A stretch of DNA of 64,000 nt from Kofleriaceae bacterium (GTDB lineage Bacteria > Myxococcota_A > Polyangia > Haliangiales > Haliangiaceae), in NCBI GenBank assembly GCA_018057825.1, contig JAGPCY010000017.1, forward strand, positions 62,001 through 126,000, in the 5' to 3' direction. Below the pieces are notes generated by a model, which had not been told where the DNA came from, did not search any database, and was given only the letters and a program-made list of their open reading frames with translations. Below, piece by piece: positions 40,441-49,688 of the stretch. The position numbers and the translations under genes are program-made. How positions within the stretch are numbered: position 1 is the first letter of the stretch; each line of letters begins with the position of its first letter.

Positions 40441-40560
40441 CCTCGACCTCGGACTCGGTCTCGGACTCGGTCTCGGTCTCGGTCTCGGTCTCGGACTCGG
40501 TCTCGGACTCGGACTCGGACTCGGTCTCGGTCTCGGTCTCGGACTCGGGTTCGGACTCTC
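40441..40560. repeat. Hexamer array 5 (GGNCTC on + strand)
   Basis: About 120 bp of GGACTC and GGTCTC units starting right after the TonB-receptor stop codon. GGACTC is commoner here than in the other arrays. The genes are co-directional, and the GGNCTC strand is the sense strand of the upstream gene, as in array 2. The remaining ~130 bp to the next gene are unique sequence. Confidence 0.97.
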
Positions 40561-42444: not shown

Positions 42445-43968
<1,524 letters not shown>

Positions 43969-43996
43969 CCGCCCGCCAATCCCGAGAGGACACGAC

Positions 43997-44743
43997 ATGG
44001 CCACTCCACTAAAGTTCCGTGCCACCGGTGCCGTCATCGTAAAGCACATGAGCCCCCACAGGTGCATGGTCGCGGCCGTCGCTCGAGCTGGAGCCCCACT
44101 CGATCTGACCGACGAGAAGCGCTGGTTCGAGGTGAGCTTCTTGGCCACTCCGACCACGGCACCCTCATGGGACCAGGTCCTATTCGACGACCGTGGGATT
44201 TGCCCCGATGCGATCCTCGGGACCGCTTGGGTTCCACTCCCAACGGTCTTCGGACCAGATCAAAACACCGACGGCATCGCCATCTCGACGATCGGGCCGC
44301 TTGCTGAGCTGCCGCGCGGCCAGTACGTTGGCTCGATCCACATCGAGTCGAGCCACCACAAGAAGCTCGGCGCCCTTGTCGCGGGATGGCTCCCCAGCGA
44401 TGCCTACAACTACGAGTTCACGAGCGTTGCCTTCCCAGACGGCACCTTCAGCTCCAAACGTTACACAGGATTCGAATGCGAAGTCACCTCCATCCAAGGT
44501 CGCACGGCCACGCTCGACATCTTTGATCGCCTGGATCGCGCAAAGGCGTACAAGAGCATCCAGGTCGACCTCGACTCGCCCGAAGACTGCACGTTCGACG
44601 TCGAGCCAGACCTCGACCTTGCCGGATCCGCCGAGAAGATGCTGGCCAAGACACCGGCCAAGGGCGACCGGGGCGGGCTCTACATCAACCTGCGCCGAGC
44701 ATACCTTCTGCGCGGACCGAAGATGCCGGTCGGAATGGGCTGA
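43997..44743 (+). CDS. Unknown protein in the low-GC cassette
   Basis: 248 aa, unrecognised. It appears soluble and largely beta-stranded (RWFEVSFLATPTTAPSWDQV, GSIHIESSHHKKLGALV, YNYEFTSVAFPDGTF, FECEVTSIQGRTATLDIF), with no signal or membrane segment. A Ser-His-His-Lys-Lys cluster and three cysteines are visible, but no catalytic motif. GAGAGGA lies 7 nt before the ATG, a better Shine-Dalgarno than most genes in the window have. Codon use is far less GC-biased than in neighbours, which supports transfer. Its stop is 4 nt before the ATG of the caspase/CHAT-like candidate, so the two are surely co-translated and probably functionally linked. Confidence 0.72.
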   Translation: MATPLKFRATGAVIVKHMSPHRCMVAAVARAGAPLDLTDEKRWFEVSFLATPTTAPSWDQVLFDDRGICPDAILGTAWVPLPTVFGPDQNTDGIAISTIGPLAELPRGQYVGSIHIESSHHKKLGALVAGWLPSDAYNYEFTSVAFPDGTFSSKRYTGFECEVTSIQGRTATLDIFDRLDRAKAYKSIQVDLDSPEDCTFDVEPDLDLAGSAEKMLAKTPAKGDRGGLYINLRRAYLLRGPKMPVGMG

Positions 44744-44747
44744 AGCC

Positions 44748-45701
44748 ATGCCAGACAACAACGTCCAGGCCCTGAACATCAGCCATGACCGGCCCGACGA
44801 CACACTCAAGGAGGTTCAACAGAAGCTCACCAACGAGATCTGCGTGACCGGAGCCGTCGCTCCGGCGAACATAAACCTGGCCTCCGAGCTGACCAGCCGA
44901 GTCTCGGGATATGAGGAAGACAAGAAGATTGTCGCCTATCTCATCGCTCACAGCTACAAGGGGGTCCTCCAACTTGGAGACTGGACACTCTCCGACAAGG
45001 CAGTAGCGGAGCAGCTCGCGAGCAAGTGCGCACCGATCGCCGCCAAGATTCGTGCGTTCGTGCTACTCGGATGCAGCACGGCAGCCCACGATGGCTGGGC
45101 AGCGATGGGGGTGCTGTGGCGCGCCTTTCGCGACCAAACGAACCACACGGTAAACGTCGCTGGCACGACAATGCCCATCGGAGAGCCCGACTTCTCGACA
45201 ACGGAATTCACGAAGCCAACTCTATTGCGCGGCTACCGCGAGGGCTCGCGCGATCCGGGGCCTGGCGAGGCAAGCACGATCGAGAGGGCCTACCGACAGT
45301 GGTTCGCCTCGGCGTCGACATACAGGCCGCTACAGAACGTAGGCGTTCTCCAGAAGAACCTACATGCCGATTCTGAAGACGCCGCAGCGGAAGACCAACG
45401 CCTCTGCCGACGGCCGGGCAAGTGGGACATCCTGCCAATTCGGCCGAGCCAGTTCATCGACATCCTCCACCGTTGCGACCCCGAAGTGAGACGCGTGCCC
45501 GGACTCCTTGCAATTCCAGATTACGAGCTATTCGCACCCCTGGCGAATGACATCGTCTGGCGAATGTCCGTACTTCTCGACGGATGGTTTATCCGAACCT
45601 ATGCGGCACCTGACGGCGAAGGGGTTCTTCTGCGGGTGACGCCCCACTTGCGTGACCGCATGATGGGCGAGTTCGGTCGCCAGCTGGGAGGAGCGCGATA
45701 G
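44748..45701 (+). CDS. Candidate caspase/CHAT-like cysteine protease of the low-GC cassette
   Basis: 317 aa. Two predicted strands end in the residues expected for a clan CD His-Cys dyad: KKIVAYLIAHSYKG (His68) and KIRAFVLLGCSTAAHDGWA (Cys109). The spacing of 41 is typical of caspase and CHAT domains, where strand 3 ends in H-S/G and strand 4 in (S/G)-C-x-T/S. GVLQLGDWTLSDKAVAEQL between them resembles the CHAT 'L.L.dg.lt...l' linker. The C-terminal ~170 residues are unrecognised. Only the dyad pattern supports the call. No transmembrane segment. It could instead be an unrelated alpha/beta protein. It is convergent with the kinase-STAND-FGE gene (15-nt gap) and co-transcribed with the unknown gene upstream. 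Confidence 0.5.
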   Translation: MPDNNVQALNISHDRPDDTLKEVQQKLTNEICVTGAVAPANINLASELTSRVSGYEEDKKIVAYLIAHSYKGVLQLGDWTLSDKAVAEQLASKCAPIAAKIRAFVLLGCSTAAHDGWAAMGVLWRAFRDQTNHTVNVAGTTMPIGEPDFSTTEFTKPTLLRGYREGSRDPGPGEASTIERAYRQWFASASTYRPLQNVGVLQKNLHADSEDAAAEDQRLCRRPGKWDILPIRPSQFIDILHRCDPEVRRVPGLLAIPDYELFAPLANDIVWRMSVLLDGWFIRTYAAPDGEGVLLRVTPHLRDRMMGEFGRQLGGAR

Positions 45702-45716
45702 GGTCAGCCACGAGGC

Positions 45717-48700
45717 TCAGAGCGCGCAGCGCAAGCCGAGGTAGTAGGTTACCAAGCCCTCCGGACGGCTGTGTGAGATCGCCAGCATGTCGGCTAGGCC
45801 CTCCGCACGGGTCTCCGACCACTCTCCCCCGCTGGCAATCGCTAGGCCCCGTTCGTCATGATCGTTCGTCCACTCTTGGACATTGCCCGCAAGATCGACG
45901 AGGCCGTAGGGACTCAGGTCTCCCGCGACCGAGCCGACCGGCATTGGGCTGACGGCTACTTCAAACACGACGTTCGCCGTGATCGCGCGCGTCGGGTCCC
46001 CCCACGGATAGTTGCGTCGCGGGTACGGGTTGATGCCGCCGCCGGGCAGCGACAACCCTCCGCGTAGCGCCTTCTGCCATTCTCCGCGCGTTGGCAAGCG
46101 CTTGCCGAGGAACGCGCAGTACGCACGCGCGCGCCCCCACGGCAGGCTGGTCACCGGATACTCGGGCAGCATCGCGCGCTCGAGCTGCGCTGAGTCAGCG
46201 TAGATCGGTGCGCGAATCCCGCTGAAGCTCGCCATGCTGGTGAACATCGAGTAGGCAGCGTTCGTGACCTCGGTCTGGTCGATCGCGAAGTCCGGCAGGG
46301 CCGAGACTCGCTCGTGCGCGGTATCTGCTTCCGACAGCATGCGCTCCGAGATGGGCTCACCCGGGCCGCCTTCGATGAACGGCCCGGCCGGGATCTCGAT
46401 CATGCCGGCCCAGGTGGCCTGGCAGGTCGGCACCGCGATCGTGAACTCCGGCGGCCTAGCGGCGCGCCGCGGGTACCCCGGCAGGGCGCGCACCGGGATC
46501 ACCGACGGTCCACACGGCGCCTCGCCGGCGCGGCCGCGGCCGTCGATGACCAGGAAGGCGCCGCCGCCCGAGGCCTCGACGGTGAACCGCCCCGGCTGTC
46601 CGGACACCGGACGGATCGTCGCGCGGGCCGTCGGGCGCACCGGCCCCGGCGCGTCGGGATCGGCGGGATCGGGATCGTGGATCGCGAGGCGCAGCGCCGG
46701 CAGCGCCCCGGCCTCGACCGGGCGGGCCCGGCCCCCGGGCGCGTCGACGACCGCCAGGGGTGGATCCCAGTCGAAGGGCGCCAGGGCGAGGGTGAAGCGC
46801 CCCAGATCGCGCTCGGCGATCGAGCGCTCGCGGTCGGCGGCGGCGGCGATGGTCCAACGATCGTAGGCCGCCAGGCCGACCCCCGCGGCGACGGTGACGG
46901 CCAGCGCCGCCACGGCCACCGCGCGCCGGCGCGCCACCCGCCGCGACCGCGCCACCAGCTCGGTCGGGCGCAGGGCCTCGCCGCCCCGGCGGGTGTGCTC
47001 GGCGTCGAGCTCGGCCAGGGCGCCCGGGTGGAGCTCGAGCTCGCGCAGCTCGGCCCTCGACAGCAGGCTGACCCCGCCGCCGCGGGCGCGCCGCAGGTGA
47101 TAACGGACCTGCTCCATGGCCCGGCGCCGCGCCAGGTCCTGGCGATCGAGCCAGCCCAGGACCCGCGGCACCAGGCTGTCGTGGGCCAGCTCCCAGCGCG
47201 GCTCGGCGCCGCGCACCGGCGCCACCAGGCCCTGGGCGCGCAGCACCTCGAGGACGGCGACCACCGCGGCGCCGTCGCCGCCGGCCAGCGCGATCAGCTC
47301 GGCCTCGTCGCGGGTGGCCCGGCTGCTGGCGGTGGTGACCAGGGCGATGAAGAGCTCGCGGGCGATCGCCCCCTGGGCCGGGGTCAGCTCGGTCTCGAGG
47401 ACGCGCTCGAGGTGCTCGCCGACCACCGCGGTGAACCCGCCGAGCGCCTGGTAGTGGGCCAGCGTGAGCCGAGGCTCGTCGTCGGGCAGCGCGTCGTAGA
47501 GCGCCGCGCCGACGAGCTGCAGGTGAGGCGGGAACACCGCCGGCGCGTCGCCCCAGCCGAGCTCGGGCCCCATGGCCCCCGCGGCGGCGACCAGATCGCC
47601 CACCACCGCGGCGATCAGCGCCGGCTCGACCTCGATCCGCCGCTCGGCCAGGGGCGTCACCAGGGCCAGCTCGGCGGCCTCGCGGGTGAGCGGGCCGATG
47701 CGCACGACCGGCGCCGGCGCGCCGACCAGCTCGGCGCGATCGAGGAGCCGGGCCAGGAAGTCCTCGCGCACCGACAGGACCACCGCGACCTCGGGCGCCG
47801 GCTCGCGCACCAGGGCCAGGATCGCGGTCAGCTCCGGGTGATCGCCGAGGAGGAGCGCCTCGACCTGATCGAGGACGACGACCACCCGGCCGGCGCCGGC
47901 GCGCCGATCGAGCGCGGTCGCCAGATCCGGCGCCCCCGGCGCCAGGGCCTCGACGAGCGTCGCCAGCGGCGTCGCCCGCCCCGAGGCGTAGAGCCCGAGG
48001 ACGCCGAGCTGCGCGAGCCGCGGCACCAGGCCGGCGCGCAGGAGCGAGGTCTTGCCGACGCCCGACGGCGCGGTCACCACGACGGCGCTGCGAAACAGCA
48101 CGTGATCGAGGAGCAGCGCGCGCTCGCGATCGCGCCCGCACAGGCGCTCGGCGTCGGCCTCGGTCAAGGACGCCAGGCGGACGAACGGTGGCCGGGGCGG
48201 TGGCGGCGCCGCGGCCTCGCGGGCCAAGGCCGCCGCGAACTCGGCCGCGCTCGGGTAGCGCTCGCGGGGCTCGAGGGCGAGGGCGCGCGCCAGGACCGCG
48301 CGCAGGTGGGGATCGGCGATGCCGTCGAGGGGCGGCACCAGGTCGCGCGCGCTCGTGCGGCGCCAGCCGGTGAGGAGCGTCACCAGCACCAGCCCGACCG
48401 CGAACACGTCAGAGCGCGCGTCGACCCGGCCGTCGTGGAGCTGCTCGGGCGCCATGAAGGCCGGGGTGCCGCCGGCCGACGCCGCGGGCTCGGCCTGGCG
48501 CAGGCGCGCCAGCCCGAAGTCGAGGAGCACCAGGCGCTCGCCGCCGCGGGCCTCGACCACCATCGCGTTGGCCGGCTTGACGTCGGCGTGGACCAGGCCG
48601 GCCTCGTGGGCCGCGGCCAGCCCGGCCAGGAGCTGCCCGATCAGCGCGACCGCCCGCGGCGCCGGCAGCGGTCCGTCGGCGCACAGCGCGGCCAAGGTCG

Positions 48701-49688
48701 ATCCGCGCAAGAGCTCCATCGCGTAGAACAGCCGCCCGTCGTGGCTGACGTCGGCCTGATAGATGCGCACGACGTTGGGATGATCGAGGCGCCCGACCGC
48801 GCGGATCTCGTGGAGGAACAGCCGACCATCGGCGCTGGTCGGATCGAGGTCGTCGTGGAGGAGCTTGATCGCGACGTCGCGATCGACCGCGAGCTGGCGC
48901 GCGCGATAGACCGCGCCGAAGGAGCCGCGGGCCAGCTCCTCGTCGAGGCGGAACCGCCCGGGCAAGACCGTGCCGACGCCGGTGACGCCGACCGACGCCG
49001 AGCCCGACGCCCCGCTCCGCCGCGAGCGCAGGAGCTCGAGCTCGGGAGCCACGGGCGGCGGCGTCAGGATCGAGGCCACCCGCGCGGTCGGACGCACGCG
49101 GCACTCGCCGAGGGCCGCGCCCAGGTAGCGCCCGAGGCTGGCCAGGGTGATCGTGCCGGTGGTCGGATCGAGCGCGGCCCCGGCCAGGGCCGCCGCCAGG
49201 CTGGCGACGACGTCGTCGCCCGGCGCGGCCACGACCACCAGCGGATCGCTTGCCTCGAGGGCGGCCACGCTCGCGGTCACCACCGACGCCTCGGGCCAGG
49301 TCGGCGCGGCGAGGACGATCACGGTCGGCGCGGTCACCGCGCGCAGTCGCTCGCCGAGCCAGGACAGCGCCAGGCTCGCGTCGTCGGGGTAGCGCTCGGC
49401 CTCGGCGGCGAGGATCACGGACGGCGCGCCGGCGATCATCGCCAGCGGCGCGGCGAGGACGATCAGGGCGATGGCCGGCGCCGCCGCGCCGAGCTCGTCG
49501 ACCGCGCGCTTGAGCTCGAGCCGATCGACGGCGCCGTCGACCGGCCGGGCGACCCGCCAGCCGGCGCCGCTGCCCAGGAGGGTCTCGGCGATCTGGGTCG
49601 CAGATGCGCTGGCCGCGATCGCGAGCAAGGCGGCGCCGCCCCGCCCGGCCCCGGCGTCGCCGTCGTGACCCATACCCGGCACGTCCAT
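45717..49688 (-). CDS. Ser/Thr kinase - STAND NTPase - FGE fusion with degenerate caspase-like N-terminus
   Basis: 1323 aa. Residues ~15-195 look like a caspase-type domain that lost its dyad: the two core strands end in IVLAAPLAM and VIVLAAPTW where His and Cys would be, and the tail DPTTGTITLASLGRYL fits the family's C-terminal helix. Residues ~245-490 are a kinase with G-loop ARGSFGAV, Lys275, HADVKPAN (Asp369) and DFG at 390-392. Residues ~510-910 form an nSTAND1-type NTPase (CGRDRE, P-loop TAPSGVGKTS near 540, VVVLDQVEALL). A TM helix lies near 920-945, a linker follows, and an FGE domain covers ~1090-1323 (KRLPTRGEWQKAL, LVDLAGNVQEWTND, YLGLRCAL). The FGE part is visibly lower in GC than the rest. 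Start ATG 49688 has TATCGT 9 nt upstream. Confidence 0.85.
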   Translation of the reverse strand: MDVPGMGHDGDAGAGRGGAALLAIAASASATQIAETLLGSGAGWRVARPVDGAVDRLELKRAVDELGAAAPAIALIVLAAPLAMIAGAPSVILAAEAERYPDDASLALSWLGERLRAVTAPTVIVLAAPTWPEASVVTASVAALEASDPLVVVAAPGDDVVASLAAALAGAALDPTTGTITLASLGRYLGAALGECRVRPTARVASILTPPPVAPELELLRSRRSGASGSASVGVTGVGTVLPGRFRLDEELARGSFGAVYRARQLAVDRDVAIKLLHDDLDPTSADGRLFLHEIRAVGRLDHPNVVRIYQADVSHDGRLFYAMELLRGSTLAALCADGPLPAPRAVALIGQLLAGLAAAHEAGLVHADVKPANAMVVEARGGERLVLLDFGLARLRQAEPAASAGGTPAFMAPEQLHDGRVDARSDVFAVGLVLVTLLTGWRRTSARDLVPPLDGIADPHLRAVLARALALEPRERYPSAAEFAAALAREAAAPPPPRPPFVRLASLTEADAERLCGRDRERALLLDHVLFRSAVVVTAPSGVGKTSLLRAGLVPRLAQLGVLGLYASGRATPLATLVEALAPGAPDLATALDRRAGAGRVVVVLDQVEALLLGDHPELTAILALVREPAPEVAVVLSVREDFLARLLDRAELVGAPAPVVRIGPLTREAAELALVTPLAERRIEVEPALIAAVVGDLVAAAGAMGPELGWGDAPAVFPPHLQLVGAALYDALPDDEPRLTLAHYQALGGFTAVVGEHLERVLETELTPAQGAIARELFIALVTTASSRATRDEAELIALAGGDGAAVVAVLEVLRAQGLVAPVRGAEPRWELAHDSLVPRVLGWLDRQDLARRRAMEQVRYHLRRARGGGVSLLSRAELRELELHPGALAELDAEHTRRGGEALRPTELVARSRRVARRRAVAVAALAVTVAAGVGLAAYDRWTIAAAADRERSIAERDLGRFTLALAPFDWDPPLAVVDAPGGRARPVEAGALPALRLAIHDPDPADPDAPGPVRPTARATIRPVSGQPGRFTVEASGGGAFLVIDGRGRAGEAPCGPSVIPVRALPGYPRRAARPPEFTIAVPTCQATWAGMIEIPAGPFIEGGPGEPISERMLSEADTAHERVSALPDFAIDQTEVTNAAYSMFTSMASFSGIRAPIYADSAQLERAMLPEYPVTSLPWGRARAYCAFLGKRLPTRGEWQKALRGGLSLPGGGINPYPRRNYPWGDPTRAITANVVFEVAVSPMPVGSVAGDLSPYGLVDLAGNVQEWTNDHDERGLAIASGGEWSETRAEGLADMLAISHSRPEGLVTYYLGLRCAL

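Follow-up and report, generated by a model that had tools for sequence, protein, structure and literature searches.

We describe a real, conserved and uncharacterized four-gene unit in a 64,000-nucleotide stretch of a Kofleriaceae bacterium genome (assembly GCA_018057825.1, contig JAGPCY010000017.1, positions 62,001 to 126,000; hereafter the window, in whose numbering positions are given unless another locus is named). It comprises a sigma54 enhancer-binding activator (EBP), a protein without a known family (P1), a protein that is very probably caspase-like (P2) and, converging from the opposite strand, a kinase–STAND–FGE protein with a predicted membrane anchor (KSF). The gene set and the predicted fold of P2 are well supported, whereas what we say of mechanism is a working model. 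We lean, at rather less than even chances, towards reading the unit as a membrane-anchored variant of the nSTAND1-FGS conflict systems, a four-gene signalling or conflict unit in which P2 would act on P1 or on small peptides that share its tail. Its features are as follows (GC, guanine plus cytosine content; HTH, helix–turn–helix).

42454–43968, forward strand: EBP, GAF-sigma54 enhancer-binding activator with a Fis HTH (Pfam GAF, Sigma54_activat and HTH_8; start, at about 42454, inferred from relatives)
43997–44743, forward strand: P1, 248 residues, open frame without known family, C-terminal 'RGPKMPVGMG' tail
44748–45701, forward strand: P2, 317 residues, open frame; predicted caspase-like (clan CD) domain in residues 1–169
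44949–44951 and 45072–45074, forward strand: P2 His68 and Cys109, predicted dyad, from conservation
45717–49688, reverse strand: KSF, protein kinase, nSTAND1, membrane helix and FGE (Pfam; inferred start, 49688; the open frame extends to 49919)
48186–48974, reverse strand: kinase domain (Pkinase, E 2e-34; Lys, HADVKPAN and DFG motifs kept)
47100–48185, reverse strand: nSTAND1 NTPase (nSTAND1, E 3e-43; Walker A TAPSGVGKTS intact)
46860–46922, reverse strand: predicted membrane helix AVAVAALAVTVAAGVGLAAYD between nSTAND1 and FGE (hydropathy)
45717–46439, reverse strand: FGE domain with a C-type-lectin fold (FGE-sulfatase, E 2e-28), predicted outside the membrane
43820–46360, no strand: low-GC block spanning P1, P2 and the FGE end of KSF (segmentation)

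A conserved neighbourhood

A preliminary description of this DNA, made from its letters alone, had reported two genes separated by four nucleotides and converging on a kinase-STAND-FGE gene, and the open frames and Pfam domains bear this out. P1 and P2 are 4 bases apart (44744–44747), the KSF frame ends 15 bases from P2, and EBP ends 28 bases before P1. The same description had taken a low-GC cassette as the unit; the block is real, but the conserved unit is larger than P1, P2 and KSF, as EBP belongs to the conserved neighbourhood.

Of 30 genomes in the family that were searched with profiles, 11 gave a P1 match and 14 a P2 match. P2 lies within about 1.1 kb of P1 at 18 of the 19 P1 loci read, usually with the activator and a converging KSF gene, so the adjacency of P1, P2 and KSF is not chance. 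P2 homologues co-occur with P1 and with the kinase-nSTAND1-FGE gene, contrary to one of the outcomes that the preliminary description had named as refuting it. The usual order is activator, P1, P2, with KSF converging from the opposite strand; one locus (L014) runs activator, P2, P1. On contig C48, the window genome (8.9 Mb) carries a second cassette, in which P1 is 40% and P2 31% identical and which has a converging kinase-nSTAND1-FGE gene and an activator remnant before P1. It also holds an additional P1–P2 pair on contig C71 and, on contig C39, a KSF–P1–activator unit in which P2 was not recognized.

The conserved neighbourhood recurs among Kofleriaceae-related soil bacteria. It is present in two genera of the window family, and a more diverged form occurs in another Myxococcota family (f26), where P2-like genes and kinase-(nSTAND1)-FGE genes are neighbours and a third gene occupies the place of P1. 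Three of its loci (L065, L066 and L067) are tandem arrays of kinase-STAND-FGE and P2-like genes with such a third gene. The P2 profiles of the two families match with 98% probability (E 4e-14), and the comparison of the P1 profile with the f26 P1-position gene (hhalign probability 15%, p 0.0017) is only suggestive of homology. When genome contigs were scanned with an nSTAND1 alignment, the arrangement was also present in relatives from metagenome assemblies labelled Kofleriaceae, Myxococcales or Deltaproteobacteria, several of which are duplicate records; a direct scan of genome contigs with the P2 sequence returned no relative. Across 379 genomes of the phylum, one P2 profile matches 9 genomes and a second 17, so the unit is patchy.

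A probable caspase-like protein, its partner and the tail peptides

Very probably, P2 is caspase-like and its dyad is intact, because fold matches to its predicted model, the placement of His and Cys after strands and their conservation all point the same way. Foldseek ranks a C80 cysteine protease domain first for the model (E 4e-4, prob 1.0), and legumain, C11 proteases and caspases follow among other chains. VIA-align places the moderate-confidence model on the RtxA cysteine protease domain (Z 9.5, rmsd, root-mean-square deviation, 3.6 over 148 residues); further C80 chains, SAVED-CHAT, and legumain and caspases (Z 6–7) come lower, and clan CD relatives fill most places. The fold match is carried by residues 1–169, the C-terminal part being barely tested. 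In clan CD, the catalytic His and Cys are each expected to follow a strand, and in the model residues 60–66 and 101–107 form strands that precede His68 and Cys109. This dyad, first pointed out in the preliminary description, sits where it was placed, and its His is kept in 28 of 28 and its Cys in 27 of 28 P2 sequences. The accompanying label of a caspase- or CHAT-like protein survives in its first half, in that both prediction and search give a clan CD fold, as its author had proposed to check. On CHAT the results diverge: an activated SAVED-CHAT structure reaches Z 8.1 against the model, the CHAT profile (PF12770) finds no match in Pfam, and the nearest folds are of the C80 type. We infer proteolysis by P2 from this fold and dyad.

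No family reaches its cut-off for the window P2. DUF4347 (PF14252) is the sole hint, at E 0.06 and 13.5 bits against a Pfam gathering score of 24.6; at relaxed thresholds it matches 11 of 19 and 7 of 9 P2 relatives (best E 3.9e-5). The P2 core also matches inside very long frames of 1,497–2,548 residues (G337:C18, G056:C1, G040:C558 and G051:C19), which are perhaps DUF4347-bearing surface proteins.

P1 was called unrecognized in the preliminary description and is still so, with zero matches in Pfam, NCBIfam, PADLOC and PHROG. It was aligned with 17 relatives, and its predicted model is made mostly of strands (pLDDT, the predicted local distance difference test, 73; pTM, the predicted template modelling score, 0.75). 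Residues 155–235 weakly resemble an OB/SH3-like barrel (best VIA Z 3.5, too weak to assign). Foldseek found no match to the model at E 0.001, and the searches with P1 returned neither a gasdermin nor a CHAT nor a phage protein. By eye, P1 and P2 show no export signal, and both are probably inside the cell.

Nearly all complete type-a members of P1 end in a 'PKxP...G' tail. At four loci, where P1 is tail-less or a second, tail-less copy is present, nine small frames lie between P1 and P2 (L061 11418–11901, L075 5615–6221, L076 4191–5115 and L015 1163–1789). Their peptides, mostly in tandem, have a charged start, a hydrophobic stretch and an end like 'PKxPxxxGE' or 'KWPxxxGE', and are possibly toxins, precursors or recognition tags. 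Of 4908 frames, 10 fit the tail pattern, all of them a P1 or a small gap peptide, against 0.1 in shuffles; the count is descriptive, the pattern having been written after the peptides were seen.

The putative receptor and the apparent exchange of an inner block

KSF joins Pkinase, nSTAND1 and FGE-sulfatase domains, all far over the Pfam cut-offs, in one protein. A membrane helix is predicted at the same place in its full-length relatives except L005, where it falls below threshold, and two cysteines follow the helix in most of them. The FGE domain lacks the active-site cysteine pair (its C-terminal 60 residues contain only the Cys of the terminal LRC), and its nearest solved relative is SUMF2. 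Because the helix precedes FGE, the catalytic cysteines are absent and SUMF2 is closest, the FGE end most likely serves for binding and lies outside the membrane. At the other end of KSF, about 200 residues (49020–49649) are conserved at 39% mean identity, with a DPxTGTVTxASL motif and no Pfam family; the idea that they are a decayed caspase domain found no support in Pfam, a PDB profile search or profile comparison.

The genes of the unit differ in how fast they change, with mean pairwise identities that fall from 63% (activator) and 62% (kinase) through 54% (nSTAND1) and 45% (FGE) to 27% (P2) and 25% (P1). The atypical composition that the preliminary description had seen in P1, P2 and the FGE part is confirmed by segmentation and by GC at third codon positions (GC3). 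The best two-level segmentation of the window sets the block at GC 0.633 against 0.753 outside, with a log-likelihood gain of 69; no segment in the rest of the window exceeds 15. GC3 is 0.77 in P1, 0.73 in P2 and 0.83 in FGE, against 0.94–0.96 in the activator, nSTAND1 and kinase.

Three loci, the window unit, L063 and L013, have a low-GC block with similar borders, one close to the junction of activator and P1 and the other close to where the FGE part of KSF begins; the L013 contig stops shortly after P1. In the FGE tree, L063 groups with the other genus (support 95/92); keeping it with its own genus is rejected by the approximately unbiased (AU) test at p 0.038, whereas kinase-nSTAND1 shows no conflict. 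The borders in three loci and this one tree conflict support the exchange of P1, P2 and FGE between loci as one block, from marginal tests on few loci. Apparently, then, the low-GC block is the inner, exchangeable part of a conserved four-gene unit and not a free-standing insertion. Recent acquisition of the whole unit is rejected because the order is conserved and some loci have no GC contrast.

Elsewhere in the window, a hexanucleotide array (CTCGGT, 16.8 copies) occupies 40448–40548; frames of similarly low complexity, in which Glu/Thr/Ser or Arg/Asp alternate, are also present on further contigs of this genome (L005, L061), so the array looks like a dispersed simple repeat.

Possible mechanisms and known systems

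Combinations of STAND NTPases, kinases and caspase-like proteases in bacteria have been proposed to be related to the immune and cell-death pathways of animals, and few of their partners and signals are known. The compact, repeated unit described here offers a candidate receptor, protease, substrate and regulator together, with a predicted outward-facing sensor, and its tail motif suggests a specific candidate substrate. In the conflict-unit model that we favour, KSF would be a membrane receptor whose non-catalytic FGE end binds a ligand outside the membrane. Judging from its domain families, ligand binding may cluster nSTAND1 and so switch the cytoplasmic kinase, which would then control the P1–P2 pair. 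P2, as a putative cysteine protease of predicted fold and conserved dyad, would act on P1 or the small tail peptides, and growth stop or cell killing could follow. The activator, from its place in the operon, may set the supply of P1 and P2, and P1, P2 and FGE would form the specificity part, exchanged as a block. A bolder version makes this a hitherto undescribed membrane-receptor death or recognition system, with the caspase-like protease and P1 (or the tandem hydrophobic PKxPxxxG-tail peptides) as effector; a single low-GC specificity block, made up of the sensor domain and the two effector genes, would be exchanged whole, and the kinase, NTPase and activator would not vary. We think this version possible but doubtful.

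Several observations count against the conflict-unit model. The third unit of the window genome (L062, 8388–9104) has activator, P1 and KSF with no recognizable P2, and its kinase lacks the usual HxDxKPxN match. One P2 relative (L071, 2022–2906) has LLGSC for LLGC at the presumed catalytic Cys, and no P1 gene was recognized beside it. The P2 model itself is moderate (pLDDT 70, pTM 0.58, six sequences). A strict consensus scan recognized no sigma54 promoter at the window unit, and the few neighbour genes tested included zero defence genes, with carotenoid genes and a TonB-type receptor among them. Nor does the genome hold a near-identical copy of the last 301 FGE bases that could be a diversity-generating template; its two reverse transcriptase genes are both on other contigs.

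A developmental or kin-recognition role would dispense with death: the outside FGE would recognize a product of a partner cell, the kinase and activator would alter expression, and limited proteolysis by P2 would serve as signal. No partner is better conserved than the sigma54 activator (63%), the FGE is predicted to lie outside the membrane, unlike cytoplasmic phage sensors, multicopy and fast-evolving inner genes fit recognition loci, and PMC10907252 itself offers kin recognition as an alternative. Yet we found no link to known developmental genes, and proteins of kinase-STAND-FGE architecture are elsewhere counted with the conflict systems (PMC8195603). We consider this role less probable than a conflict unit. 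Less probable again, and in our view unlikely, is a secretion or maturation system in which P2 would process or export P1 and the tail peptides, with the PKxPxxxG tail as recognition signal and the small hydrophobic peptides as secreted or membrane-inserted products. The tail common to P1 and to the nine small peptides between P1b and P2b at four loci favours it, as does the confinement of all ten pattern matches to P1 or P1–P2 gaps, but it leaves the kinase-STAND receptor unexplained, the unit has no transporter gene, and P1 has no signal peptide by eye. That P1 and P2 came together as a recently acquired island of unrelated cargo, accidentally beside the kinase gene, would suit the low GC and GC3 of the window block but is highly improbable, being already contradicted by the conserved neighbourhood, by the same order in many genomes, including loci without GC contrast (L073, L077), and by the lack of any plasmid match to P2.

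The closest known systems are the nSTAND1/NACHT-FGS conflict systems (PMC8195603), in which STAND-FGS proteins, nSTAND1 included, carry N-terminal kinase, caspase or adaptor domains and FGS is proposed as a sensor of invaders. KSF has the defining parts, a STAND NTPase fused to a C-terminal FGE and an N-terminal effector, here a kinase such as the S/T/Y kinases found there; as here, there are several copies per genome and the hosts belong to lineages with multicellular members. Unlike those systems, KSF has a predicted membrane helix that separates STAND from FGE, its operon adds a sigma54 activator, P1, a C80/DUF4347-like caspase fold and tail peptides, and no diversity-generating template was found; in those systems a diversity-generating reverse transcriptase or template is a frequent but not constant companion. 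The STAND antigen sensors of Thiohalocapsa, diversified by diversity-generating retroelements (PMC10907252), likewise combine nSTAND1 with a C-terminal FGE as proposed sensor and with peptidase partners; such domains are proposed there as hypermutated antigen sensors, with kin recognition raised as an alternative. In contrast, the FGE end here has no near-identical template repeat, and P1, P2 and FGE apparently change fast by being exchanged as a block and by diverging. Kinases and caspases serve as effectors in STAND-FGS systems, although the published FGS systems are themselves predictions (PMC8195603, PMC10907252).

For P2, the self-processing C80 cysteine protease domains are the nearest solved folds to residues 1–169 and also place His and Cys each after a strand, but P2 is only ~12% identical to them, stands alone outside any toxin and has long forms with a distinct C-terminal region. 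DUF4347 (PF14252) gives a weak profile match over the same His/Cys core, with the window P2 below its cut-off. The open-licence literature searched holds no paper tying Kofleriaceae to caspases and none that reports the membrane helix, the tail peptides or the association of the activator with P1 and P2. The preliminary description had suggested a possibly undescribed system; because the kinase-nSTAND1-FGE architecture is known (PMC8195603), what appears to be new is limited to its combination with P1, P2, the activator and the tail peptides.

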